Virus record (IMG/VR): IMGVR_UViG_3300046559_000142
Location: 1 to 20,991 of that record
Reading direction: 5' to 3' (one strand)
DNA from: a virus
Length of the DNA: 20,991 nucleotides
Below, piece after piece: positions 766 through 20,991 of the stretch (position 1 is the stretch's first letter; every line of letters begins with the position of its first letter). Below the pieces are notes generated by a model. It saw only the letters and a list, made by a program, of their open reading frames with translations. It had not been told where the DNA came from and searched no databases. The position numbers and the translations under genes were made by a program.

Positions 766-1449
766 ATGGTAGCAGCAGCGGTAGGAGCTACGGCCGTCGC
801 GGGGCTGGCAGGCTCCGCCATGTCGGCAAGCGCGGCAGGCGATGCGGCCGACGCACAGGCGCAGTCGGCTCAGAACAATCTCGATCTCGCAAAGCAGCAA
901 TACAGCACGCTGCAAGGGCAGATCTCGCCGTACCTATCGGCAGGGCAGACGGGCCTTACGGGCTATCAGGATCTGCTCGGCGCGAATGGCAACGGAGCGC
1001 AGAACACGGCGATCGGCGACATCAAGAACGGCGCGCAGTATCAAGGCCTGATGCAGACGGGCAATGAGAACGTGCTCGCCAATGCATCGGCGACAGGCGG
1101 CCTGCGCGGCTCGAATACGAGCAACACGCTCGCCAATACTGGCATCTCGACGCTGAACAATCTCATCACGCAGAAGCTAGCTGGCTATCAAGGCCTTATT
1201 GGCGCTGGTCAGAACGCGCTTGCGACGTCGAACGGTGTCAGCAGCAACTACCAGAACGCAGCCACGAACGCGAACAACCAGCAGGCGAATGCGGCCACGT
1301 CTTACGCCGGCTCGCTGTCGAACTCTGTCAATTCCGGACTCGGCGCGATCACGCAGGGCGTCAACGCGTATACGAGCCAACCGGCTGCCGCAAATCAGGT
1401 CTACGGCCAGACGGCTAGCGGCAATCCTATCGTATTCACGGGTGCGTAA
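766..1449 (+). CDS. ejection (DNA-transfer) protein, gp7-like
   Basis: This 227-residue protein has a hydrophobic Ala/Gly N-terminus (residues ~2-30), then a helical stretch and the motif ISPYLSAGQTGL near residue 53. A segment containing TGNENVLANASATGGLRGS follows, and later GYQGLIGAGQNAL. This order (PY..AG..AL, then a short 'SA..G.LRS' motif, then 'L..L...GQ.A') is typical of podovirus DNA-transfer proteins that leave the virion with the genome and help form the channel across the host envelope. The C-terminal third is Asn/Ala/Gln-rich and low in complexity. The start ATG lies 3 nt after the previous stop. It ends in a TAATG junction with the next gene, making the first of three consecutive ejection-protein candidates. 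Confidence 0.7.
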   Translation: MVAAAVGATAVAGLAGSAMSASAAGDAADAQAQSAQNNLDLAKQQYSTLQGQISPYLSAGQTGLTGYQDLLGANGNGAQNTAIGDIKNGAQYQGLMQTGNENVLANASATGGLRGSNTSNTLANTGISTLNNLITQKLAGYQGLIGAGQNALATSNGVSSNYQNAATNANNQQANAATSYAGSLSNSVNSGLGAITQGVNAYTSQPAAANQVYGQTASGNPIVFTGA

Positions 1450-2813
1450 TGACTGAACTTATCGACTTCAGCAACATCGGGAAGGGCCTCGATACGCAGA
1501 TGGGGAACGCTGCTCAGCAAGGGCAGCAACTCGGATTCAATGCGGCGACAATCCCCGGCAGGATTCAGGCGACCAACGCAGGCAACGCGGCGAGCGTGTC
1601 GAACGCTGGCTTGCAGATCAATAACAACCAGCGTCAGCAGTCGTTCCAGATGGAATCGCAGGCGCTCGCGTCGAATCCGAATGCGACGCCGGCTGACTAT
1701 CAGGCGCTGGCGAACAAGTATCCCGAGTTTGCGCAGACGGTCAACGGGAACCAGCAGCAGACGCAGACGAATTGGGTGAACCTGCGTCAGCGCATGTCAT
1801 CGGATGCGGTGGCGACTGTGGCCGGCATGCAAGCGCGGTTGCAGGCAAACGATGTGCCAGGCGCGCTCGATCTGCTGGAGCAGCGCGCGGTGCGTCAGGA
1901 AGGCGCCGGCGACAAGGAGGGCGCGGTTGCCACTCGCTCGTTTGAAGCGCTGATTAAGCAGAATCCGGACGGCGCAAAGCAGGTCGCATCGCAGATCCTG
2001 AACGCTGGCAGCGCAAACTCGGCTGGCGATCTGTACGCGAACCAGGCGAACCAAGCGCGCGCAGTGGTGGCACAGCAGACGGTTCCGGCTGTTGTTTCTC
2101 AGGCTAACTCCAGCGCGTCGACGGCGGGCACTGAAGCGGCATACGCGCCTGCAAAGGCAAAGGCTGCTGTCGATTCGGTAAATGCAGGAACGGATCTCAC
2201 GAAAGCTCAGACGGGCATTGTCAACCGCGATCTGAATGGCGGTGGCCCCGCTGCGATCACGGCAGCCGAGCCAGAATACAACGCAGGGCAGTCGAATCAG
2301 CAGCTCTCGGATCAGTCGGGCGAACTGGCGAACGCATTCAGCCAGATCAAGGCTGGCGGCACAAGTGGTGTGCTCGGTGCAACGTGGGACCAAGCCGGCC
2401 GCAAGTGGACGGGTGACACGTCGAAGCTACAGCAGTTGCGGCAGGAAGCGGCAAGCCTCGTCACGCAGGCGGAAACGGCGAGCATGGTGAACGGCAACTT
2501 CACCGACGCATCGACCGCGCGCGCAGTGCAGAACGTGCCACAGGTGACGGACAGTCCGGAAGCATGGGCTACGTACCTGCAAGCGCGTCAGAAGTTCCTC
2601 GCGTCGAAAGCGGCATGGTCGAACGCTCGCGGTGACTGGAAGCGCAATAACAACGCATCCGCCGGCCCCGCGTACCGTGACTTCACCATTCAGACGCCAG
2701 ACGGTAAGTCTGTTCTCGTAAAGAGCGGCGATAGTTTCACGCAGTTCAGCAAGAAGGTTGCGCCGAGCTACTACACGGCGCCGGGCGCTAACTCCTTCGA
2801 CCCGACGAAATGA
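1449..2813 (+). CDS. ejection / internal virion protein, gp20-like
   Basis: This 454-residue protein is rich in Ala, Gln and Asn, with no signal peptide and no clear membrane segment. The N-terminal ~80 residues are Gln/Asn-rich and probably disordered. Residues ~85-180 are helical and contain a repeat-like stretch ending LDLLEQRAVRQEGAGDKEGA, which I recognise as common in podovirus internal proteins. A second helical part spans ~270-400. It sits between the gp7-like protein and the transglycosylase-bearing ejection protein, overlapping both by 1 and 4 nt (TAATG and ATGA). Position, composition and size match the middle ejection protein of P22-like phages (P22 gp20, about 470 residues). I see no enzymatic motif; the assignment rests mainly on context. 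Confidence 0.65.
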   Translation: MTELIDFSNIGKGLDTQMGNAAQQGQQLGFNAATIPGRIQATNAGNAASVSNAGLQINNNQRQQSFQMESQALASNPNATPADYQALANKYPEFAQTVNGNQQQTQTNWVNLRQRMSSDAVATVAGMQARLQANDVPGALDLLEQRAVRQEGAGDKEGAVATRSFEALIKQNPDGAKQVASQILNAGSANSAGDLYANQANQARAVVAQQTVPAVVSQANSSASTAGTEAAYAPAKAKAAVDSVNAGTDLTKAQTGIVNRDLNGGGPAAITAAEPEYNAGQSNQQLSDQSGELANAFSQIKAGGTSGVLGATWDQAGRKWTGDTSKLQQLRQEAASLVTQAETASMVNGNFTDASTARAVQNVPQVTDSPEAWATYLQARQKFLASKAAWSNARGDWKRNNNASAGPAYRDFTIQTPDGKSVLVKSGDSFTQFSKKVAPSYYTAPGANSFDPTK

Positions 2814-5800
2814 CCAAAGATACCTTTCCGGTTAGCTACAAAGATCCGGTCTACGCTGCGGCCGATCAGGCTGCGTCGGACGCTGCCGGCATTCCGCCCG
2901 GTCTTCTGACGAGCATTCGTGTCGCTGGCGAGAAGTCGAACGCCAATCAGGTGTCGAGCGCGGGCGCCCGTTCTCCGTACCAGGTGACGCCCGAAACGCG
3001 CGATCTTCTCATCAAGAAGTACAAGATCGATCCGTGGGAGTCTCCGCAGGCTGCGGCGCTCGGTGCTGCATACCTGCTGAAGGAGGGTATTCAACGCACA
3101 GGAAGCGCGGCAGGCGCGGTTACTCAGTACATCGGCGGTGTCGACCCTAAGAATTGGGGCGGACAGACGCGCGCTTACACGAATCGCGTGATGGCGCACT
3201 TCACCGGCAACGGTGGACAGGACGCGCCGCAAGCAACGCCGATCCCTGCCGCTCCGCTGCCGAGCGCTGCATCGTATGGGCTCGACCCGTCTGTAGTCGG
3301 CATGGATAACGCGCCGCAGCAGCAGCCTACCGCAGCCGTGCAGGCGCCGAAGGCTGTTGCTCCCGCTGCTGGCGTGAATAACCAGATCGTCGCCGACTAT
3401 AACGCCGGACGCCTGTCGCCTGAAGATATGGCGGCTGTCGAGCAGCGCGCGTCGAAGATCGGCATCGATCCTAGCCAGTTGCAGAACCCGAATAAGCAAG
3501 CCGGAACGGGCTCGCCGATGGGCTTTGATTCGGCCAAAGGCGCGGCGCCGCAGCCGAAGCCGATCGGTCCGCAGACGCTCGCCGCGATGCAGGCTGGCAA
3601 GCTGTCTCCGGATCAACTGGCGACGATCAAGGCAGGGCTCGACAATGGCACGCTGACGATGCCGGCGAACGCTCCTGCCGCTGCGCCCGCGCAAGATGCG
3701 ACCGGTCCGCAGAATGACGGATATTTCGCTGCGGGCTTGCCTGCGTCTGCCGCTCCGACTGCGCCCGCCAATCCGGCTACGGCGGCAAAGAACGGCTCTA
3801 CGTGGTCTGACGTGGCAGAGAAAGCCGTCGGCGGTGTCGCAGGTAGTCTGCTCGACATCGCATCGGCCGGCGGGCGTCTGGTGGGCGCCAATGAGTTTGC
3901 GGACAAAGCGAACGCCGCGCATGAGCAGATCAATGCGCAGATGGCGCGCGACACGAACAACAGCGTCTCAGGCAAGGTTGCCGGCTTCGTCGGTGAGGCG
4001 GCTCCATATGCTGCGATGGGCGGCGCAACGCTTCCGGGTGCTGTCGCTGGTGGCGCTGTCGCTGGCGCGGCTCCTGCTGTGGCACAGAACAAGTCTGTCG
4101 GCGAAGTGGCGCGCGACGCGGCCGTCGGTGGCGCTGCGGGTGCGGCTGGTGTCGGCATCGGCAAGGTGCTCGGTAAGGGCGTGTCCGCTCTCGCCGAGAA
4201 TCCGACTGTCGCCAAGGGCATCGCGCGCTTGCAGGAAATGTTCGGTAAAACGCCGTCCGAAGCCACGAAGGTCGCAGCCAGTGGCGCGGCGCCTGACGCT
4301 CAGGTCGCGGCCGACATCGCAGGCGCAACCGGTCACACGCCGAGCGAGCTGGCGTCCAAGCTCGAAAAGGCGCCCGCATCGCAGACGCCGGGCTATGTGC
4401 CGAGCGCGGCCGAAATGGCAAACGACGCGAACGTGACGACGCTCCAGAAGGTGAGCACGAACGCGAACCCGTCGACGTTTGGCAATGCAAGCGCCAACAA
4501 TGACGCGGCGATTGCGTCTGCTCTGGGAAAGGGCAAAGCGCCTGGCTCGATGCCGGCCGAAGCGCCGAACACTCCTGGCACGGCAGCCAATCCGCAGGCG
4601 GCAGAGCATGCGGCGGAAGCGGCGGCGCAGAAGAGTGACGCACTCGCAGCGCAGGGCCAATCCGAGGTCAAGCCGCTCGCCAAGCCTGTTGCTGACAAAC
4701 TTCAGTCTCCGCAGTTTGAAGCGCCGGTCAAGCTTGCGCAGAAGATCGCCAAGGATCAGGGCTCGACCGTGTTCGAAGATCTGCAGAAGGCGAAGCACGC
4801 CGAGGCAGCGGCAGCGCTCGACCAGATCACCGGCACGCCCGAGCAACTAGCAGCAGCGAAGGCAGCACGCAGCGCGGATGCGGCCGACAACTTCCTTCCG
4901 CTCGACAAGTCGGCAACGCTCGAGTCTGATGCGTGGAAAAGCCTCGCGAAGCGCCCGACGTTCCGCGAAGCTATCGGAGAGGCTGGCGATATTGCAGCCG
5001 ATCGCGGCGAGAAAGCGGCAATTACTGTCAACCCGGACGGCTCCGTCACCGCAACCGGGCGCGGCTTGCTTGATGCGAAACAGGGCATCGATGGGCTGAT
5101 CTCGAAAGCTTCGCTTGCTGGCGACACGTCGAAGGTATCCCGCTACACGGCCGTCAAGGAAGCTTTGCTCAAGGAAATGGACACGGCATATCCGAAGTAC
5201 GGTGCGGCCCGCAAAGCGTACTCGGACGCGTCTGCTCCAATCGATGCGATGACGGCATTGCAGACTCGAGTCAATGGCGCCATCAACCCGACAACGGGCG
5301 AAGTTAGCTCGAGCAAACTTATCCAGACGATCAATAGCATCAAGGCCGAGCAGATGAAACCCGGCTTCCGTCCGGCCGACAAGGTGCCTGATGCAACGCT
5401 GGATGCACTCGCAGCACTGGCAAAACATCTCGAGAACAAAAACGATCTGACGGGCTTGCCTGCCGAAGGGCAGGAATACATTCGGCGCGCGCTTGCCTCG
5501 AGCGAGAAGCATGCCGCGGCGCATCAGGAGTTTAAGAGCGTGCTCGACGCGCAATCGCCGGCCTACAAGGAACTGCACGGCGCGCATGCGCAGAACGTAG
5601 CGGCCATCGATTCGCAGAAGGCCAGTCAGACGGCACTCGCGCAGGCGGAAGAGGCGGTACGGAACGCCGACTCGCCCGGCAGCCTGAAGGCGCTCGACAA
5701 GCTGCTCCCGAACATGGAAGCGGCCGACAGGGCCAAAGCGATCGCGCTACGCCAGCAGAAGGCGCGCGAGCTGGCAATGAGCGAAGTTGCCGAGCGCAAC

Positions 5801-6334
5801 AAGAACAGCCGCGGCGAAACGGAATTCAACCGCGGCACATTCAAGAGCGCATCCGACAAGTATTCGCCGTTCATGTCGAAAGAGGACGCAAGCCAGTTCG
5901 GCAGCGTTGCGCAGGATCTGCACAACCAGACGACGACATACGCCAAGACGGGCAAGATCGGCGGCAGCGACACGATGCAGAACCAGAGCGCGGCCAAGCG
6001 GTTCGGCCGCAATCTCGGCGACGCTCTGAAAGATGTGGGGGTGCAGGCATTGATCGGCGGCGGAGTCGGTACGGCGATGGGTCCGCTCGGGACGATCGGC
6101 GGCGCAGCGGCCGGCGCAATCACTGGCGCACTGACGCGCACGATCACGCAAAAGGTCTCGTCCATCACGACCGAGAACGCCGCAAAGCTATTGTCGAACG
6201 GTAAACTATTGGCCGCAGCGCTACGGAACTATGACTCTCTCGCCGCGCGCCGTCTGTTCGTTGAGCAACTGTCGCAACGTGCAGGCTACGCCGCAGGGGC
6301 TGCCGCAGCGAATCAATTTAACGGTCGTCGTTAG
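2810..6334 (+). CDS. large ejection protein with N-terminal lytic transglycosylase (SLT) domain
   Basis: This 1174-residue protein starts with a soluble-lytic-transglycosylase-like domain (about residues 12-130). The catalytic Glu is predicted at E41 in AGEKSNANQVSSAGAR, followed by SPYQV and a late GGVDPKNWG motif, the form seen in podovirus ejection proteins that cut peptidoglycan during DNA entry. Residues ~195-280 hold two copies of a short repeat (NAGRLSPEDMAAV and QAGKLSPDQLATI). Two Gly/Ala-rich hydrophobic stretches at ~389-460 and ~1080-1115 look like glycine zippers that could insert into membrane. Between them lies a long Ala/Lys/Glu-rich helical region. It is the last and largest of the ejection genes, comparable in role to P22 gp16 (609 residues) but nearly twice as long. 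The start overlaps the previous stop as ATGA. Confidence 0.85.
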   Translation: MTKDTFPVSYKDPVYAAADQAASDAAGIPPGLLTSIRVAGEKSNANQVSSAGARSPYQVTPETRDLLIKKYKIDPWESPQAAALGAAYLLKEGIQRTGSAAGAVTQYIGGVDPKNWGGQTRAYTNRVMAHFTGNGGQDAPQATPIPAAPLPSAASYGLDPSVVGMDNAPQQQPTAAVQAPKAVAPAAGVNNQIVADYNAGRLSPEDMAAVEQRASKIGIDPSQLQNPNKQAGTGSPMGFDSAKGAAPQPKPIGPQTLAAMQAGKLSPDQLATIKAGLDNGTLTMPANAPAAAPAQDATGPQNDGYFAAGLPASAAPTAPANPATAAKNGSTWSDVAEKAVGGVAGSLLDIASAGGRLVGANEFADKANAAHEQINAQMARDTNNSVSGKVAGFVGEAAPYAAMGGATLPGAVAGGAVAGAAPAVAQNKSVGEVARDAAVGGAAGAAGVGIGKVLGKGVSALAENPTVAKGIARLQEMFGKTPSEATKVAASGAAPDAQVAADIAGATGHTPSELASKLEKAPASQTPGYVPSAAEMANDANVTTLQKVSTNANPSTFGNASANNDAAIASALGKGKAPGSMPAEAPNTPGTAANPQAAEHAAEAAAQKSDALAAQGQSEVKPLAKPVADKLQSPQFEAPVKLAQKIAKDQGSTVFEDLQKAKHAEAAAALDQITGTPEQLAAAKAARSADAADNFLPLDKSATLESDAWKSLAKRPTFREAIGEAGDIAADRGEKAAITVNPDGSVTATGRGLLDAKQGIDGLISKASLAGDTSKVSRYTAVKEALLKEMDTAYPKYGAARKAYSDASAPIDAMTALQTRVNGAINPTTGEVSSSKLIQTINSIKAEQMKPGFRPADKVPDATLDALAALAKHLENKNDLTGLPAEGQEYIRRALASSEKHAAAHQEFKSVLDAQSPAYKELHGAHAQNVAAIDSQKASQTALAQAEEAVRNADSPGSLKALDKLLPNMEAADRAKAIALRQQKARELAMSEVAERNKNSRGETEFNRGTFKSASDKYSPFMSKEDASQFGSVAQDLHNQTTTYAKTGKIGGSDTMQNQSAAKRFGRNLGDALKDVGVQALIGGGVGTAMGPLGTIGGAAAGAITGALTRTITQKVSSITTENAAKLLSNGKLLAAALRNYDSLAARRLFVEQLSQRAGYAAGAAAANQFNGRR

Positions 6335-6342
6335 GACTCCAA

Positions 6343-6801
6343 ATGACAAAGCCAGTTTTCTCCGTCGAGCGGTTCCAGGATGTCTACGACGAACTGCTGC
6401 CGCTTCTGCGCAAGCACTACGACGAGATCAGCCTGCACAAGCAACAGGGATATGACCTGAAGCCGAATGTCGGCCTCTACCGCGCGATGCAGGACGCAGA
6501 TCAACTGACGATGATGATCGGCCGCTTGGACGGGCGGATCGTCGCTTACTTCGTCGTGTTCGTGCGGCCGAGCATCCATTACGGCGACTGCCTGGAAGGA
6601 ATCGGAGACATCTTCTTTGTCGAACCAGGTCTGCGCGGGCTGATGTACGGACTGGCTCTGTTTGAGGCAACTGAAAACGAACTGAAGCGCCGAGGCGTCA
6701 AGTGCTTTATGGCCGGCGAAAAGGTCGCATTCCCCGCGCGTGCTCTGTTTGAGCGGCGCGGCTTCGAAGAAATCGAAAGGAAACACGCCAAATGGCTTTG
6801 A
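6343..6801 (+). CDS. phage GNAT-family N-acetyltransferase-like protein
   Basis: This 152-residue protein has the layout of a phage GNAT subfamily. An N-terminal helix contains DELLPLLRKHYDEI, followed by a strand AYFVVFVRP (about 68-76). The acetyl-CoA loop region is IFFVEPGLRGLMYG (about 89-102), and the C-terminal FERRGFEEIER strand-helix closes the fold. The Q/RxxGxG pyrophosphate loop is degenerate (RGLMYG), as it often is in this subfamily. The substrate is unknown; a virion or host protein is possible. The gene has a good ribosome site (AGGA 8 nt before ATG). It ends 10 nt inside the portal gene, so the enzyme is made as part of the late structural operon rather than as a separate moron. 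Confidence 0.75.
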   Translation: MTKPVFSVERFQDVYDELLPLLRKHYDEISLHKQQGYDLKPNVGLYRAMQDADQLTMMIGRLDGRIVAYFVVFVRPSIHYGDCLEGIGDIFFVEPGLRGLMYGLALFEATENELKRRGVKCFMAGEKVAFPARALFERRGFEEIERKHAKWL

Positions 6802-9089
6802 CCAAAGAAGAACGGCACGGCAAGGTTTGGGACCGCGCGACGGCCCGGTTCGATCGCGCCTACGGCCCGCAACAGCAAATTCGGCTCGCCTCGCTCGAAG
6901 ACCGGCGCTTTGCCTATGTCGACGCGGCTCAGTGGGAAGGCGGTCTAGGCGCGCAGTTCAACAACCGGCCGCGCTTCGTCGTCAACAAGGTGCAGAAAGC
7001 CGTTCGGCGCATCGTCTCCGAGTACCGCGCTAATGCGATGACGGTCAACTTTCGGTCGAGCGAAGACGACAGCCGGCAGGATGATCTCGACGCGCTGCGC
7101 ATTGTCTACCGCTCCGACGAGCAGTACAGCAGCGCGCAGGACGTCTATGTGTCGGCATTCGACGAAGCGGTCGCGGGCGGCATGGGCGCCTGGCGCCTGA
7201 CGAACGACTACGATCACCGCGCGGAAACGGATCTGGACGACGACACGCCGCAGCGGATCTGCTTCGAGCCGATCCCTGACGCTGACATTTCCGTCTTCTT
7301 CGATCCGGACAGCCGCAAGCTCGACAAGTCAGATGCCAAGTGGTGCACTGTGCTTAACCCAATTAGTTGGGATACCTACACGACCGAATATCTCGGCGAC
7401 GAGGTGGAGCTGACCGAGCGCCCGACCAGTTTCAAGGCGGTTCGCTCGCTGAAGCAGTTCGATTGGTTCACGAACGATTCCGTCTACATCGGCGAATATT
7501 ACGAGGTCGAGCAGAAGGTCGAGAAGTACTCGGTCTGGCGCGAACCGCATTCGGGCGTGGAGCAGAAAGTCTATGCCGGGCTCGATGCAGAAGGGCGCGA
7601 GGATGCGGAAGAGCAGGAGCAGCATTACGCCTCGATCGGCTATATCAAGGTTCGCAGCGGCAAGCGCAACAGCAAGAAGGTACACAAGTACTTCATGGAC
7701 GGCTGCGGCATCCTGAAGGACTGTGGCTACATCGCTGGCACTGAGATCCCGATCGTCGTCGTCTACGGTATCCGCCAGGTGATCGACGGCATCGAACGCG
7801 TCCAAGGTGCAGTGCGCCTCGCGAAGGACTCGCAGCGCCTGTACAACATGCAGATCTCGACGCTCGCGGACATTACGGCATTTACGCCGCGCGAGAAGCC
7901 TATTTTCACTCCCGAGCAGGTCGCAGGGCATGAGCTGACATGGGCTGGCGATCTCGTTGCGAACAATCCGTATCTGCTCATCAACCCGGTGACGGGCGCC
8001 GACGGCTCGCAGACGATCGCCCCGCCTGTTGGCTACATCAAGCAGCCGGACGTTCCGCCCGCGCTGGCTGGCCTCGTGCAGATCACGGCAGCCGACATGC
8101 TCGACGTGACGGGCGGCGATCTGGCAGCCGGTCAGGTAACGTCCAACACGTCTGATGCGCTGGTGAGTCGTGTGCAGGCGCATCAGGACATGCAGGTCTA
8201 CATCTTCATCGACAACATGTCGCGCGCGATGCAGCGCTGCGGCAAGATTTACCTGTCGATGGCGTGCGACATCTACACCGAAGACAATCGCAAGTTTTCC
8301 GCCAATGGCGAGGATGGATCGCCCGAATCGACGTCGATCAATGTCCCGTCGATCGACGACGAAGGCAAGCCGACGATCGCCCGCGCGTTCACGCCCGGAC
8401 TTGATGTGTTCGTTGATGTGGGCCCGGCGTTCAACAGCCGCAAGGATTCGACCGTCAACGCAATCGCCAAGATCCTGCCGGGCATCGTTGATCCGCAGAT
8501 GCAACAACTGATGGTCGCAACGCTGGTCCGCAATCTGGACGGCGAGGGCATGGAAGACCTTTCCAAGTTCGCGCGTATGCAGCTCGTCAAGGCTGGCGTC
8601 GTCAAGCCGAACGACGAAGAAGCACAGCAGTTGCAAGCCGAGCAGCAAGAGGCAGCAAACGCACCGCCCGACGCTCAGACGGTCGCTCTGCTGGCTCAGG
8701 CGCGCAAGGATGCAGCGAGCGCCACGCAAAGCGAAGCATCGGCTGTGCAGGCTCTGTCGACGGCCGAACTCAACCAGGCGAAGGCTGCCGAGTCGATCTC
8801 AAACACGAACGCCAGCCAGTTGTCGACGATCATGCAGATGCTGCAAGGCATCCAAGATCGCGTCAACCAGCAAGCGGGCCAGGTGAATCAGGATCAGCCG
8901 CAAAGCCCGATGGACGGCAAGGTGAACCAGGCGATCTCGTCTGGTGTCGCGGCGCCGTCGCCGGGTGTCAACGCGCTTCACGGTACGCAACAGGTCGATC
9001 CGACCGCGCAGGCGTTGACCGCGGGCAATGCGCCGGCAGCCGCACAGGCTCCGGTCCATGTCTCTAACCGTCCTGCGGTGGGCCATTGA
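6792..9089 (+). CDS. portal protein, P22 gp1 family
   Basis: This 765-residue protein forms the dodecameric ring at the capsid vertex through which DNA is packaged and ejected. The N-terminal half carries the P22-portal pattern: FNNRPRFVVNKVQKAVRRIV, a later GGMGAWRLTNDYD, then FEPIPDAD and DPDSRKLDKSDAKWC. These match in order the P22 gp1 segments I remember (FNRVRPVVRRLV, GYGAWRL, SKLMDKSDARHC). Length is close to P22 gp1 (725). Residues ~620-720 are Ala/Gln-rich and likely coiled coil, corresponding to the C-terminal barrel of P22 portal. A ribosome site (AAGGAAA) precedes the ATG, which overlaps the GNAT gene. The stop overlaps the terminase start as TTGA. Confidence 0.92.
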   Translation: MALTKEERHGKVWDRATARFDRAYGPQQQIRLASLEDRRFAYVDAAQWEGGLGAQFNNRPRFVVNKVQKAVRRIVSEYRANAMTVNFRSSEDDSRQDDLDALRIVYRSDEQYSSAQDVYVSAFDEAVAGGMGAWRLTNDYDHRAETDLDDDTPQRICFEPIPDADISVFFDPDSRKLDKSDAKWCTVLNPISWDTYTTEYLGDEVELTERPTSFKAVRSLKQFDWFTNDSVYIGEYYEVEQKVEKYSVWREPHSGVEQKVYAGLDAEGREDAEEQEQHYASIGYIKVRSGKRNSKKVHKYFMDGCGILKDCGYIAGTEIPIVVVYGIRQVIDGIERVQGAVRLAKDSQRLYNMQISTLADITAFTPREKPIFTPEQVAGHELTWAGDLVANNPYLLINPVTGADGSQTIAPPVGYIKQPDVPPALAGLVQITAADMLDVTGGDLAAGQVTSNTSDALVSRVQAHQDMQVYIFIDNMSRAMQRCGKIYLSMACDIYTEDNRKFSANGEDGSPESTSINVPSIDDEGKPTIARAFTPGLDVFVDVGPAFNSRKDSTVNAIAKILPGIVDPQMQQLMVATLVRNLDGEGMEDLSKFARMQLVKAGVVKPNDEEAQQLQAEQQEAANAPPDAQTVALLAQARKDAASATQSEASAVQALSTAELNQAKAAESISNTNASQLSTIMQMLQGIQDRVNQQAGQVNQDQPQSPMDGKVNQAISSGVAAPSPGVNALHGTQQVDPTAQALTAGNAPAAAQAPVHVSNRPAVGH

Positions 9090-10360
9090 GCGAAATCTCG
9101 CTTCCTGATTGGGCCGAGTGCCTACTTAGCCAAGGCCCGCGCTACACCATCTTCCACGGTGGGCGCGGGTCTGGTAAGTCGATGGCCTGCGCGACAGCGC
9201 TTGTGATCCGCGCCGCGGCCGAACCGCTGCGTATTCTGTGCTTCCGGGAAATTCAGGAATCGATCGACGAGTCGGTAAAGGCGATCATCGAGCAGCGCAT
9301 TAAAGACTGCGGGCTCGAAGGATTCTTCACGATCCTGAAAAAGGAAATCGTTGGCCAGAATGGCAGCAAGTTCATTTTCCGGGGGTTGAGTGATGAAACG
9401 GCCGACTCGATCAAATCCCTGAATGACATCGATATAGCTTGGGGCGAAGAGGCGCAGGCTCTGTCGAAGGAATCGCTTCAGCTTTTTCTGCCGACGATAC
9501 GGAAAGACACGTCAGAAATCTGGTTCAGCATGAACCCGGAGCTAGACACCGATTACGTCTATACCGCATTCATTCAGAAGCGACCGCATAACGCGCGGAT
9601 CGTCGAGGTGAACTGGGATCGGAACCCGTTCTGGAACGCGGCGATGGAAGCAGAGCGGCTTCGATCGAAACAAGACGACCCGGACGATTACGACCACGTT
9701 TGGGAAGGCGTTCCAAAGTCGGCTGTTGCAGGCGCAATCTACCGTCGAGAAATGCATTTGCTTGTGACCGAGAACCGCATTCGGCCTCTTCTGGCGGACC
9801 CGACGCTCGGGACTCACGCGATCTTCGACCTTGGCATCAACGACATGATGGCCGTTACGGTCGCGCAGGCCGACATTAGCGGCGCCCGCATAGTTGGCTA
9901 CCACGAGGACAGCAACTATGGGATCGACCATTATTGCGAATGGCTGAAGGATACTGGCCGGAAGGATGCGGTTATCTGGCTTCCGCACGACGGCAACGCG
10001 CGGTCAGTTCAAACTGGTCTGACGACGCGCCGAAGCGTCGAAAATCTCGGGTGGCAAGTTGAAATTGTTCCTGAAATCGGGGTCGAGCCGGGCATTAAAA
10101 AGACACGCAATATGCTGAAAAACGCTTTTGTCTCAGACTCGCCGGATTGCGCGATTTTGGTTGAGCACATGCGCCGCTACACGCGCGCAAAATCCGGGCA
10201 CCCGAAGCACGACGAGCATTCGCATTGCGCCGATAGCGTGCGTTACACATCGGTCGCAATGGAGCATTTTAAGAACGTATCCGAGCGGAAACGCAACACG
10301 GCCGAAGCCGCAAGGAATGTGCGGATCATCCCCACGGTGAACCATTGGGCCAAGGTGTGA
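9086..10360 (+). CDS. terminase large subunit (PBSX/Terminase_3-like)
   Basis: This 424-residue packaging motor has an N-terminal ATPase and a C-terminal nuclease. Walker A is GGRGSGKS at residues 25-32. Walker B with the catalytic Glu is DIDIAWGEEA (D116, E121, E122). The nuclease domain shows its usual three acidic positions: D248 in IFDLGIN, D302 in LPHDGNA and D383 in HCADSVRY. The frame is closed upstream by a stop at 9065-9067. No ATG or GTG lies between that stop and the Walker A motif, so TTG at 9086 is the only reasonable start; it overlaps the portal stop. The small terminase subunit is not in this window. Unusually, the gene lies after the portal, and is followed by the convergent minus-strand cassette. 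Confidence 0.93.
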   Translation: MSEISLPDWAECLLSQGPRYTIFHGGRGSGKSMACATALVIRAAAEPLRILCFREIQESIDESVKAIIEQRIKDCGLEGFFTILKKEIVGQNGSKFIFRGLSDETADSIKSLNDIDIAWGEEAQALSKESLQLFLPTIRKDTSEIWFSMNPELDTDYVYTAFIQKRPHNARIVEVNWDRNPFWNAAMEAERLRSKQDDPDDYDHVWEGVPKSAVAGAIYRREMHLLVTENRIRPLLADPTLGTHAIFDLGINDMMAVTVAQADISGARIVGYHEDSNYGIDHYCEWLKDTGRKDAVIWLPHDGNARSVQTGLTTRRSVENLGWQVEIVPEIGVEPGIKKTRNMLKNAFVSDSPDCAILVEHMRRYTRAKSGHPKHDEHSHCADSVRYTSVAMEHFKNVSERKRNTAEAARNVRIIPTVNHWAKV

Positions 10361-10366
10361 GAGTGT

Positions 10367-10445
10367 TGGTGCGGCGGTTTATACGGGAATCGAACCCGCG
10401 CCTCCGACTCATCGCCGTTGCCCTACCAACGCGCAATAAACCGCC
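10367..10445 (-). ncRNA. tRNA-like element with shortened anticodon arm
   Basis: Read on the minus strand from 10445, the sequence has a tRNA-like 5' half: GGCGGTT, TA, a D arm closed by TTGC/GCAA with a TTGGTA loop. It also has a perfect T arm, GCGGG-TTCGATT-CCCGT, and ends in ACCA. The two ends pair perfectly over 10 bp (GGCGGTTTAT at 10373-10382 on the plus strand against ATAAACCGCC at 10436-10445), three more than a normal acceptor. The stretch between D and T arms is about 5 nt too short, and I find no 5-bp anticodon stem with a 7-nt loop, only a weak CGA-TGAG-TCG hairpin. It begins 10 nt after the oxygenase stop, so it would be the 3' end of that transcript. It could be a decayed tRNA or a tRNA mimic. 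Confidence 0.55.
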
Positions 10446-10455
10446 TCCATCCATT

Positions 10456-11034
10456 TTACTGCACGCGCAGGTCGATGACCATGCTGAGCCGATCGACCGA
10501 CGACTCATTGCGCACTTCGTGCATCAGATCGTTGCGGAAATGGAACATGCGACCGGTCAGCATTTGCAACGTCTCGTCTCCGCTCGTGATGATGGCGCCT
10601 GGCTGACCCTGAATCACCAGATGGAAGCGCTTCCAATAGCAGGTTTGCTCCGGGGTGTCCGCGTGCGGGTAGATCCGGCCGCCTGGTCGAATGCGATTAA
10701 TCAACACTCGGCCGATGCGTGTCGCTTGCGTGAACCGTGCTAGATCAAATATGAACGGGTGCGCTTGGGTAAGCTTATCCCACGCAGGACGGGCGATAGA
10801 TTCGTGCTGGTCTACGCCGGCAATCTTGTTCTGCTTGTACAGCTCGATCTCTTCCTCACTCATTCCGGTTTTGATCTCCGGGAAGCGAAGCATGATCGTA
10901 TCGGTATCGCCGAACGGCCCCTGCTGGAAATTCCGTAAGAAGGTGTCCGGCTTCCACAGATCCGGGTTTGTCGAGATCGCGAGCGCGAGGGCGCCAACGT
11001 CCATGCCATCTTTGATTACGTGAAAATTGCGCAT
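10456..11034 (-). CDS. Asp/Asn beta-hydroxylase-like 2-oxoglutarate/Fe(II) oxygenase
   Basis: This 192-residue protein has the metal-binding pattern of the aspartyl/asparaginyl beta-hydroxylase family. HxD is at H124-A-D126 in GGRIYPHADTPE, the distal histidine is H172 in MHEVRN, and a candidate 2-oxoglutarate-binding arginine follows at R182. The strand order around WKRFHLVIQG and the late MVIDLR also fits the cupin fold. Such enzymes hydroxylate side chains using 2-oxoglutarate and O2; the target here is unknown. The start chosen is ATG at 11034, which forms a TAATG junction with the membrane-protein gene. A longer frame upstream would read through that gene. There is no signal peptide, so it is cytoplasmic. 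It is the last protein gene of the minus-strand cassette. Confidence 0.82.
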   Translation of the reverse strand: MRNFHVIKDGMDVGALALAISTNPDLWKPDTFLRNFQQGPFGDTDTIMLRFPEIKTGMSEEEIELYKQNKIAGVDQHESIARPAWDKLTQAHPFIFDLARFTQATRIGRVLINRIRPGGRIYPHADTPEQTCYWKRFHLVIQGQPGAIITSGDETLQMLTGRMFHFRNDLMHEVRNESSVDRLSMVIDLRVQ

Positions 11035-11252
11035 TAGAAATGAAGTGTGAGAAATGAAATTGCGGCGAACGCCATCAGCCACCAGAACGCAGCCTTAAGC
11101 ACGTCGGGCCCGTTTCGCCAGAGGTCGCCCGCGAGTATCAGCGGAAACAACAGGACGCCTTTGATGCCGCGCAAGATCGCCGGCCAGAACGCTTCGAAGA
11201 ACGCAAAGCCGATCACGCAGGCGAGGGCGCCGAATATGGCGTGTTGGATCAT
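11034..11252 (-). CDS. small membrane protein of the minus-strand cassette
   Basis: This 72-residue, strongly hydrophobic protein is not one I recognise. Residues ~4-24 and ~52-70 look like membrane spans, with a third weaker hydrophobic stretch at ~31-43. The loops contain Arg and Lys (LRGIK, DLWRNGPD) and many aromatic residues near the span ends. The start ATG has a good ribosome site (AAGGAG about 7 nt upstream) and overlaps the stop of the RHH gene as ATGA; its own stop overlaps the oxygenase start as TAATG. The three genes are therefore one tightly coupled unit. The size would suit a superinfection-exclusion or holin-like protein, but nothing in the sequence decides this. Confidence 0.7.
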   Translation of the reverse strand: MIQHAIFGALACVIGFAFFEAFWPAILRGIKGVLLFPLILAGDLWRNGPDVLKAAFWWLMAFAAISFLTLHF

Positions 11253-11395
11253 TTCTTCTCCTTGGATTCTTCTTCGTCCAGGAATCTCAATATCGCGCGA
11301 CGAACAATGTCCGCGATGTGTAGGTCATGCCGCTCGGCGAATTCCTTCAGCCGCTTTAGCAAGGGTTCGGGTAAGAACAGGCTCGTGCGTTTCAT
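11249..11395 (-). CDS. ribbon-helix-helix (Arc/CopG-like) DNA-binding protein
   Basis: This 48-residue protein is all ribbon-helix-helix. A beta strand (RTSLFLP) is followed by helix A (EPLLKRLKEFAERHD) and helix B (IADIVRRAILRFLDE), ending in a Lys/Glu tail. RHH proteins dimerise through the strand, which contacts the major groove; many repress their own promoter. It is the first gene of the minus-strand cassette and divergent from the scaffold gene. I chose ATG at 11395 because the domain begins there and an exact TATAAT lies 7 nt upstream, which would give a nearly leaderless message. ATGs at 11404 and 11413 are alternatives; the latter has an AGGA only 3 nt before it. The open frame further upstream is the antisense shadow of the scaffold gene. 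Confidence 0.78.
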   Translation of the reverse strand: MKRTSLFLPEPLLKRLKEFAERHDLHIADIVRRAILRFLDEEESKEKK

Positions 11396-11402
11396 GGTGT
11401 GC

Positions 11403-11408
11403 ATTATA
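11403..11408 (-). promoter_or_regulatory. -10 element (TATAAT) for the minus-strand cassette
   Basis: An exact TATAAT is read on the minus strand, with 7 nt between it and the RHH start codon. Transcription would begin at about the start codon. The -35 region 16-18 bp upstream (around TTTCAA) matches TTGACA in only about 3 of 6 positions, so the promoter may need an activator or be weak. Confidence 0.5.
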
Positions 11409-11423
11409 GGCATACATCCTGCA

Positions 11424-11469
11424 CATTGAAAGTTCCATCTACTGTATACTTTCTGGCATTGAATTTTCC
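11424..11469. promoter_or_regulatory. paired repeats in the divergent cassette/scaffold control region
   Basis: CATTGAAAGTTCC (from 11424) and CATTGAATTTTCC (from 11457) form a direct repeat with 11 of 13 positions equal, 33 bp apart, about three helical turns. An inverted pair GAAAGT (11428-11433) and ACTTTC (11448-11453) lies between them around a GTATAC. The region separates the divergent RHH and scaffold genes, so it is a candidate operator for the RHH protein acting on one or both directions. A weak plus-strand -10-like TATACT (11445-11450) overlaps the inverted pair. Confidence 0.4.
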
Positions 11470-11486: not shown

Positions 11487-12332
11487 ATGGACCAAGAGAT
11501 CGAAACGCAGCAGCCGGAACTCGAACAGGAGCAGCCCGAGGAAGTCGCGGCGCCCGCGTTATTTGACGACGAAGACCAGGAATCGGAAGCGCCCGAGTCG
11601 ACGGACGGCGCCGAGCAGCCCGAAGGCGAGCCGCAATCGCTGAAGGGCCAGCCGGCGCCGAAGTGGGTCGCGGATCTGCGCAAGAGTCACAAAGAGATCA
11701 TGCGCGAGAAGCGCGAGCTCCAGCGCGAACTCGAAGAGATCCGCTCGAAGCTTCCGCAGCCTGCGCCGACGCTCACCGCCAAGCCGACGCTCGACCAGTA
11801 CGACTACGACGAAACGCGGTTCTCGGAGGCGTATGACAATTGGATGGAGCAGAAGGCCAAGCTAGACGCGGCCGATCGCGCCAAGCTCGACGCGCAGCGC
11901 AAGGAGCAGGAAGAGGTCGAGAACTTCCGGAAATCCTATGCCGCCCGCAAGGAATCGCTCGGCGTGGCTGACTTCGAAGAAGCCGAGTCCGAAGTCGGCT
12001 CGATCCTGAACCAGACGCAAGCTGGTCTGCTGATGCGCGGCGCCGACGATCCCGCGGTGCTGGTCTATGCGCTCTCGAAGTCTCCTGCTCGGCTGATCGA
12101 ACTGTCGAAGATCGCCGATCCCGTCAAATTTACCGTCGCAGTCGCGAAACTGGAAATCTCCTTGGCTACCAAGAAAACAACCCGGCCGGCGCCCGAAGCG
12201 CGCGTGACGGCAGAGCGCGGAACTGGCTTCAACGCGACCAGCTCGCAACTCGACAAACTGCGAGCAGAAGCCGAGCGCACGGGCGATTACTCGCGCGTCG
12301 TTGCTTATAAAAAGCAAATGGCGCAGAAGTAA
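11487..12332 (+). CDS. capsid scaffolding protein
   Basis: This 281-residue protein has the composition and layout of a P22-like scaffold. The N-terminus (1-55) is very acidic and probably disordered. A basic/acidic coiled coil follows (about 60-90, KSHKEIMREKRELQRELEEI) and a second helical Lys/Glu-rich region spans ~110-160. The C-terminus (about 253-281) is a basic helix pair ending in YKKQMAQK. In P22 gp8 the C-terminal helix-turn-helix binds the coat protein and drives procapsid assembly, after which scaffold exits and is reused. The gene lies directly before the coat gene, as expected. A ribosome site (GAGGGTGAG) precedes the ATG. The call is by composition and position, not by a sequence motif. 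Confidence 0.82.
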   Translation: MDQEIETQQPELEQEQPEEVAAPALFDDEDQESEAPESTDGAEQPEGEPQSLKGQPAPKWVADLRKSHKEIMREKRELQRELEEIRSKLPQPAPTLTAKPTLDQYDYDETRFSEAYDNWMEQKAKLDAADRAKLDAQRKEQEEVENFRKSYAARKESLGVADFEEAESEVGSILNQTQAGLLMRGADDPAVLVYALSKSPARLIELSKIADPVKFTVAVAKLEISLATKKTTRPAPEARVTAERGTGFNATSSQLDKLRAEAERTGDYSRVVAYKKQMAQK

Positions 12333-19802: not shown

Positions 19803-20351
19803 TCAGTCCGACTTCTTGGGGGTAACTTCGACTCCGACGACGGCCGGCGCATTGTAGTTGTTCACGGTCGCATGTGAGCCAGTCAGGAAATTGGCGTTTA
19901 AGACGATCTTGACCTCTAGACCTCCCTGCATACTCCCGCTCGCCGCGAACGCCTTCAGCTGGTCTAAAACCTGTTGAAACTGCATCGGGATGTACTTCGC
20001 CTCGCCGTGCATTGCGATCTCGCCATTTGCTGCGGTCATCGGTATTTGCTCCGTCAGTTCATACGAATTGCTTCGCCCGAGTTTCCTTCGTGCAACGATT
20101 CCCATTTCATCCAGCTTTGTCAGCGCCCTGTCGACCGTATCCAGCGAGATTCCGACGTGCTTGGCTATCGCATCGCGCCCAGGATAGGATTTTCCCGTAT
20201 CGAGCGCGGCATAACTTTTGAGCACGCAGTACACCGCCCACGCATATACGCCCATTTCGGCGATCTTGTCGCGCTGGATCATCGCGCGCACGACGTGGAA
20301 CCAGTGATTCTCGACCTTCAATTCTTCCCACAACTCCGGCTGATCGTTCAT
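19803..20351 (-). CDS. winged-helix Rep-like protein (probable replication initiator)
   Basis: This is a 182-residue protein. The N-terminus WEELKVENHWFHVVRAMI leads into a helical part, and residues ~54-100 form a winged helix of the HTH_36 type: YPGRDAIAKHVGISLDTV (recognition helix), then RALTKLDEMGIVARRK and a GRSNSYEL wing. Such domains occur in phage and plasmid replication initiators and in phage regulators. The last ~80 residues have no recognised motif. The gene overlaps the ParB-like gene as TGATG and ends next to the iteron-like origin, which favours an initiator over a plain repressor. If it binds the three palindromes it could also control its own level. Many known Rep proteins are larger, so the call is moderate. 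Confidence 0.66.
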   Translation of the reverse strand: MNDQPELWEELKVENHWFHVVRAMIQRDKIAEMGVYAWAVYCVLKSYAALDTGKSYPGRDAIAKHVGISLDTVDRALTKLDEMGIVARRKLGRSNSYELTEQIPMTAANGEIAMHGEAKYIPMQFQQVLDQLKAFAASGSMQGGLEVKIVLNANFLTGSHATVNNYNAPAVVGVEVTPKKSD

Positions 20352-20671
20352 CAGTACCCTTCCCGCTCGGCCGCGGCGATCTCTCGATCAAGCGCTTTCT
20401 CAAGCGCCTCAGACACGAACCCCTTTAGGTTTTCGATTCTCCCCCATGTCTTGAGGGTGTGGAGTTTCGTCTGAATCCGGCGCGGCACTTCATAATTGGC
20501 CTTGACCACATCGTCTTGGCCGTCCCAAGGGCGTTTTCTCGCCTCTCTCTCAGGTTCTTGTTTGGTTGCTTCCTTCCTTGGTTCCTTGGTTTCTTCCTTG
20601 CTTGCTTCCAAGGTTGCCGGCGCCGCGGCCCCTTTCTTCGTCACAACCATATCGAGCGTCGCCTTAGACAT
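20351..20671 (-). CDS. small ribbon-helix-helix partition protein (ParB/ParG-like)
   Basis: This is a 106-residue protein. Residues 1-55 are Lys/Glu/Ala-rich and probably disordered, which in ParG-type partners is the arm that touches ParA. Residues ~57-98 form a ribbon-helix-helix: strand KANYEVPRRI, helix QTKLHTLKTWG, helix LKGFVSEALEKALDREI. The start at 20671 was chosen because AAGGAG lies 9 nt upstream and it overlaps the end of parA by 8 nt. An open frame upstream exists but is inside parA. Small RHH partners next to ParA define type Ib partition systems, where the partner binds the centromere. The centromere may lie upstream of parA, outside the window. Confidence 0.7.
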   Translation of the reverse strand: MSKATLDMVVTKKGAAAPATLEASKEETKEPRKEATKQEPEREARKRPWDGQDDVVKANYEVPRRIQTKLHTLKTWGRIENLKGFVSEALEKALDREIAAAEREGY

Positions 20672-20991
20672 GGGCTTTCTCCTTCTTCGCTGGTTTGTCG
20701 AACAGGCCAACAAGGAAGCTCGTCACGTTGTCGATGATGATGGCGCCAGTCCCTTGGCTGACTTCCTGAAACGTCAGGCCCGGTATCATCGACTCCCAAT
20801 AGCCGTTCAGCTTCGGTACAGCGTGCGGGATAACCGGCCCCATCGATGCCAGCTTCCGCGTGGCCGACAGCGTGACGGCTTTCCCGTTCGTCTCGTTGAG
20901 CAGAAAATAGAACTTCTTCCCCTCCTGCTCGCACAGGTCGACGGTGCTTTCGGCGGCCCGGATGTCGTGCGGCGAATGCTTGGCCGGGATG
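20664..20991 (-). CDS. ParA-family partition ATPase, C-terminal part
   Basis: The minus-strand frame is open from the window edge to a TAA at 20664-20666, giving the last 108 residues. It begins IPAKHSPHDIRAAESTVDLC, then KFYFLLNETNGKA, a TRKLASMGPVIPHAV stretch, Y..S...GLTFQEVSQGTGA and a final DNVTSFLVGLF helix. This is the C-terminal third of ParA/Soj ATPases: the 'IP..PSP.DI.A...TV.L' segment, 'LN......A' strand and 'G.T..E......A' loop occur in the known order. ParA moves plasmid copies apart using ATP and nonspecific DNA binding. The Walker A part lies outside the window. It overlaps the ParB-like gene, so the two are translated together. Confidence 0.82.
   Translation of the reverse strand, partial: IPAKHSPHDIRAAESTVDLCEQEGKKFYFLLNETNGKAVTLSATRKLASMGPVIPHAVPKLNGYWESMIPGLTFQEVSQGTGAIIIDNVTSFLVGLFDKPAKKEKAHV

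Follow-up and report, generated by a model that had tools for sequence, protein, structure and literature searches.

The oxygenase gene that lies inverted within the head operon of a soil phage is very probably a conserved, virion-linked partner of a GNAT acetyltransferase that was relocated once, and not a moron. In short-tailed phages, the two enzymes would form the halves of one module, normally collinear with the ejection genes. In a temperate clade of Burkholderiaceae phages, the oxygenase would have moved a single time, in reversed orientation, to the terminase–scaffold junction, with the acetyltransferase staying behind in the virion operon.

Layout of the inverted cassette

The window—the whole virus record of 20,991 bases analysed here—belongs to a P22-type podovirus and encodes a P22-like portal, Terminase_3, a scaffold, a P22 coat and a P22 gp7-like ejection protein (766–1449, plus strand; PF25688, E = 4.4e-9). 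Three genes are read from the minus strand between those for the terminase large subunit (TerL; 9086–10360, plus strand; PF04466, E = 1.8e-33) and the head scaffolding protein (11487–12332, plus strand; phrog_648, E = 2.7e-41). They encode an RHH (Arc/CopG-like) DNA-binding protein of 48 aa (11249–11395), a small two-helix membrane protein of 72 aa (11034–11252) and an AspH-like 2-oxoglutarate (2OG)/Fe(II) oxygenase of 192 aa (10456–11034; hereafter AspH). Overlaps of 4 nt (ATGA, RHH/membrane protein) and 1 nt (TAATG, membrane protein/AspH) join the genes end to start, and the minus-strand unit proposed in a sequence-only reading of this DNA is real. A DNA similarity search with the cassette in phage records returned 0 matches.

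The RHH protein scores narrowly above the cut-off of RHH_1 (PF01402; 20.7 vs. 20.5 bits), also matches the Arc-like repressors of phrog_876/3180 and, we infer, represses its own cassette. The membrane protein has two hydrophobic stretches and a conserved D-x-x-RNG-x-x-VL motif, and gave no Pfam and no PHROG match. At the right end of the window, two overlapping minus-strand genes (19803–20713) for an HTH_36 protein (19803–20351) and a basic 120-aa protein (20351–20713) form a possible replication or partition pair.

Downstream of AspH lies a degenerate tRNA-like RNA (10375–10442, minus strand), in which the cassette had been said to end. Its Rfam tRNA score of 29.7 bits is just above the gathering score of 29. 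The alignment contains mismatches and a degenerate anticodon arm with a shortened loop, 5 nt against the 7 of the model, which does not correspond to a functional tRNA, and ARAGORN called no tRNA in the window or in 29 clade loci. An Rfam scan of the clade recovered the element solely in a second locus of the same phage (L002), 12 other clade loci being negative, and no copy was found in plasmids or six host genomes. With no counterpart in the other scanned loci of the clade, the element does not form a constant end of the cassette and is regarded here as a relic. In relatives, the AspH–TerL gap holds small inserted genes (L008:608–1111, L130:4108–4608, L009:1343–1720 and L012:1935–2312), several of which resemble HNH/AP2 homing endonucleases by eye. 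The one in L008 is an HNH/AP2-type homing-endonuclease-like gene and L130 has a similar one (family assigned by eye), which marks the gap as an insertion hot spot.

The oxygenase is the constant part of the interval

Relatives were gathered via AspH, the coat protein, GNAT and distant AspH seeds, yielding 81 clade loci with a readable terminase–scaffold interval, 31 of them distinct. All 31 carry an inverted AspH, including five in which the AspH stop lies inside TerL or the motif is a variant and the gene was found by profile or tblastn; there was no empty site among them. AspH is thus universal in the clade, without the presence/absence pattern between otherwise adjacent genes by which a moron is recognised. 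The membrane protein is equally conserved (RNG motif in 31/31), but an RHH start was recognisable in only 25 of the 31, and the RHH proteins fall into several unrelated-looking types. L151 and L156 have retained, ahead of the membrane protein gene, the promoter and the start region of RHH but no longer its reading frame. Four Robbsia-type loci, outside the 31, have AspH alone, with neither RHH nor membrane protein. AspH is therefore the constant and RHH the exchangeable part, so that the idea of a fixed RHH/membrane protein/oxygenase system had to be given up.

These patterns also bear on a toxin–antitoxin reading, with the RHH protein as antitoxin, the membrane protein as toxin and the oxygenase as a passenger. 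RHH proteins are common antitoxins, that of the window has a weak CopG_antitoxin match (E = 0.016), and a small membrane protein gene follows directly. However, in 6 of the 31 distinct intervals no RHH is recognisable next to the membrane protein, which departs from the paired inheritance of a type II system and makes this explanation extremely improbable.

AspH is linked to GNAT and ejection genes outside the clade

Beyond the window's clade, AspH lies on the virion-gene strand, directly upstream of a GNAT gene that is followed by the P22 gp7-like ejection gene. This order was found in 48/48 testable metagenomic loci, 15/15 loci from bacterial genomes (mostly Burkholderiales), 37/37 distant loci found via GNAT alone, and 70/78 and 67/68 testable loci from distant seeds; the five search sets share contigs, so their counts are not independent, and most loci are metagenomic. 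The gene upstream of AspH in these collinear phages encodes a virion protein; the membrane protein as a companion of AspH everywhere is accordingly ruled out.

The pair is not obligate, as seen from one lineage of seven loci with GNAT but no AspH (L341, L353, L362, L363, L366, L368 and L350) and from MW202665, with AspH but no GNAT. In the AspH-less lineage, GNAT stands between a ~112-aa virion protein gene and the gp7-like gene, offering a natural comparison. Two loci have an insertion between AspH and GNAT, a small inserted gene lies between the two at L386:5589–6104, and in L173, L179, L184 and L193 the gp7-like gene is present and both AspH and GNAT are absent.

In the AspH tree, a single branch separates the inverted loci, as one clade, from the collinear ones (1 change, SH-aLRT 100). 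The window's own GNAT gene (6343–6801, plus strand) has kept its place next to the ejection genes in the virion operon. One relocation with inversion is the most parsimonious explanation of these two observations. Presence in 31 of 31 distinct intervals, together with membership of the virion operon outside the clade, argues against the moron status that had been assigned to the oxygenase.

The acetyltransferase of the window passes the PF00583 cut-off (28.1 vs. 20.7 bits; E = 2.7e-6), and its structural model has a GNAT fold (pLDDT 93.8; TM 0.64–0.76 to GNATs). Among many GNATs, a ribosomal-protein alanine acetyltransferase came first in the structure matches, with the protein N-acetyltransferase 7n1l among the nearest structures and folds near small-molecule acetyltransferases also listed. 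An assignment as a T7 gp13-like protein was dropped, given that phrog_2746 (‘host range and adsorption protein’) matched just 3 of 20 members, and weakly. A literature search for a hydroxylase–acetyltransferase pair in phages turned up gene annotations alone and no description of an AspH–GNAT module.

Fold and candidate substrates of AspH

AspH passes the curated cut-off of PF05118 (42.8 vs. 22.6 bits; E = 6e-11) and has no PHROGs family. The iron ligands H124, D126 and H172 are present in 223/223 distinct relatives and the 2OG-binding R182 in 222/223; all four are also invariant in alignments of 31–32 rows. With a dN/dS of 0.06–0.14 against ten clade members (dS being saturated in several), the gene is under purifying selection, with its catalytic residues intact. 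The AlphaFold2 model (pLDDT 89.8) is a double-stranded beta-helix (DSBH) without membrane segments. Compared with DSBH oxygenases, it reaches Z-scores of 13.5–14.9, with PHD2, proline 3- and cis-4-hydroxylases, AspH and a nucleoside-antibiotic hydroxylase tied, so that the fold does not reveal the class of substrate. The earlier designation as an Asp/Asn hydroxylase agrees with family and fold, but is too specific as to the substrate.

Judged by the model, a small-molecule substrate would be equally compatible with the structure as a protein substrate. The oxygenase might, like L-proline cis-4-hydroxylase, hydroxylate a free amino acid or metabolite and GNAT acetylate the product, yielding a modified metabolite or a detoxified analogue. 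That hydroxylase (4p7w/4p7x) is the top Foldseek match, the HxD…H triad is as in proline hydroxylases, and the small-molecule acetyltransferase-like folds among the GNAT matches would fit as well. Yet protein hydroxylases are tied in Z-score, and in hundreds of loci AspH–GNAT is tightly linked to genes for ejection and virion proteins, never to metabolic ones, leaving such a route rather improbable.

Modification of phage DNA or of host lipopolysaccharide by the two enzymes is very unlikely. Precedents exist in Mom, a GNAT-fold protein that modifies phage Mu DNA, and in LpxO, a lipid A hydroxylase of PF05118; an envelope target would also suit the membrane protein. Against this, the nearest folds are amino-acid and protein hydroxylases and not of the TET/JBP type, the oxygenase model has no membrane segment, and the collinear loci lack the membrane protein, AspH there following virion proteins.

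Predicted separate promoters in a temperate setting

A TATAAT −10-like box (11403–11408, minus strand) precedes the RHH start codon by 7 nt. It was not listed in a single-sequence promoter scan, which found no −35 consensus, because no −35 box scores there. All 16 distinct upstream sequences have a TAnnnT hexamer that ends exactly 6 or 7 nt ahead of the RHH start codon, which makes the box more than chance; as these sequences are related to each other, this is conservation and not 16 independent events. The spacing suggests that transcription starts at the ATG itself, i.e. that the mRNA is leaderless. We infer that the cassette has its own conserved leaderless-type promoter, and the TATAAT noted earlier thereby gains backing at the sequence level.

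On the opposite strand, a GTATACT −10-like box (11444–11450) precedes the scaffold gene and is conserved in the clade: GTATA[AC]T was found 22–45 nt before the scaffold start in 31/31 distinct intervals (chance ~0.018 per interval). The head genes past the cassette thus probably have a start of their own. The GTATACT/GTATAAT box lacks a recognisable −35 element and could be a phage-specific late promoter or an operator. No terminator-like site was found in the scan at the cassette end on the minus strand.

The window does not extend far enough to include an integrase, so its temperate lifestyle is deduced from its kin. In Paraburkholderia sp. BL9I2N2, a 1.16-Mb contig contains an integrated member of the clade; its tyrosine integrase lies at 571190–572251, its genes extend to ~611 kb, and LysR-like and transporter-like host genes flank it (by eye). 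Among the larger clade contigs, three also carry an integrase. The temperate setting supposed for the cassette is therefore supported at the level of the clade. AspH is found in Limnohabitans phage DC33 and Pseudomonas phage PfAn1 as well, in neither of which a tyrosine integrase was detected, so that its occurrence does not depend on lysogeny. Clear plaques have been reported for DC33 (PMC12195039).

If the cassette were a moron after all, its expression in the lysogen would alter the host, e.g. through superinfection exclusion, modification of the envelope or of host proteins, or defence, the membrane protein blocking entry and the oxygenase modifying a host target. Its opposite strand and conserved leaderless-type promoter, the temperate nature of the clade, and the union of RHH and membrane protein with the oxygenase in one overlapping unit fit such a role. 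It is nevertheless unlikely in light of the 31 occupied intervals, the collinearity of the oxygenase with virion genes elsewhere, the Robbsia-type oxygenase genes that lack both partners, and a G+C content in the cassette (0.50–0.59) that does not deviate from that of its neighbours (0.52–0.66). PADLOC returned no profile match, which weakens the suggested defence role, although it retains some probability in view of the membrane protein and the cassette's own promoter.

Proposed role of the enzyme pair

Returning to a relocated partner of GNAT, the membrane protein and the exchangeable RHH genes would have become attached after AspH had moved, in most members of the clade, and AspH would now be expressed from the leaderless-type promoter together with the membrane protein and, usually, RHH. 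The neighbourhood of AspH, GNAT and ejection genes suggests a shared substrate. From gene order, AspH may hydroxylate and GNAT acetylate a phage virion protein during assembly, most likely an ejection protein or the small (~112-aa) virion protein whose gene lies immediately upstream. That AspH modifies a virion protein is a tentative proposal, to which we give somewhat less than an even chance; the account as a whole, i.e. a relocated module partner that takes part in virion modification, we place only a little short of even. Separate and possibly lysogenic transcription of AspH in the clade would be odd for a purely late enzyme.

More broadly, it is conceivable, if doubtful, that in many short-tailed phages a hydroxylase–acetyltransferase pair is dedicated to the post-translational modification of the ejection apparatus or of a different virion protein, with the hydroxylase of one temperate clade RHH-controlled and leaderless. 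If so, the separate RHH-controlled promoter would allow the modification to be established ahead of late expression, or uncoupled from it. Phage-encoded 2OG oxygenases are common, but most are recorded as auxiliary metabolic genes to which no function is assigned. For the family described here, the gene order seen in hundreds of phage contigs leads to a hypothesis of oxygen-dependent virion protein modification that is testable by mass spectrometry, and the relocation in Burkholderiaceae phages provides a natural experiment in which AspH is uncoupled from GNAT.

Comparison with known systems

With the PF05118 members human AspH and L-proline cis-4-hydroxylase, phage AspH shares the DSBH fold and a C-terminal Fe/2OG motif, at ~18% identity over 150–164 residues, but differs in a conserved N-terminal region of its own (W-x-x-D-[TD]-[YF]-L-R…QGPF…LRFP). 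The iron site of human-type AspH consists of two histidines only, without a carboxylate ligand. The phage enzymes, in contrast, have an invariant Asp in HxD…H where the human sequence has none at the aligned position, and hence are not of the human type.

DC33 ORF8 (PMC12195039), PfAn1 XRX11816 and MW202665 UOF80163 belong to the same AspH family as the window's enzyme. In DC33 and PfAn1, unlike in the window, AspH is collinear with the virion genes and lies directly upstream of GNAT. The three proteins are annotated as auxiliary metabolic gene products or hypothetical, and the link to GNAT is not noted in the text consulted. The DC33 record (PQ492659.1) is assigned to the Inoviridae, yet encodes TerL, a head–tail connector and AspH–GNAT; it is apparently a misfiled tailed phage.

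The P22 ejection operon (gp7, gp20, gp16) corresponds to the window's genes at 766–6334, gp7 by profile and gp20/gp16 by order and size (PMC8954989). Outside the window's clade, AspH–GNAT heads the corresponding gene group. To our knowledge, the P22 operon itself contains neither an oxygenase nor an AspH-linked GNAT.

With phage morons that have their own promoter, finally, the cassette shares the opposite strand, the promoter, the position in a structural operon and the temperate phage. Morons, however, are presence/absence insertions, whereas AspH is universal in its clade and, elsewhere, belongs to the virion operon. The case shows that a gene may run against the surrounding late operon, from a promoter of its own, without being a moron.
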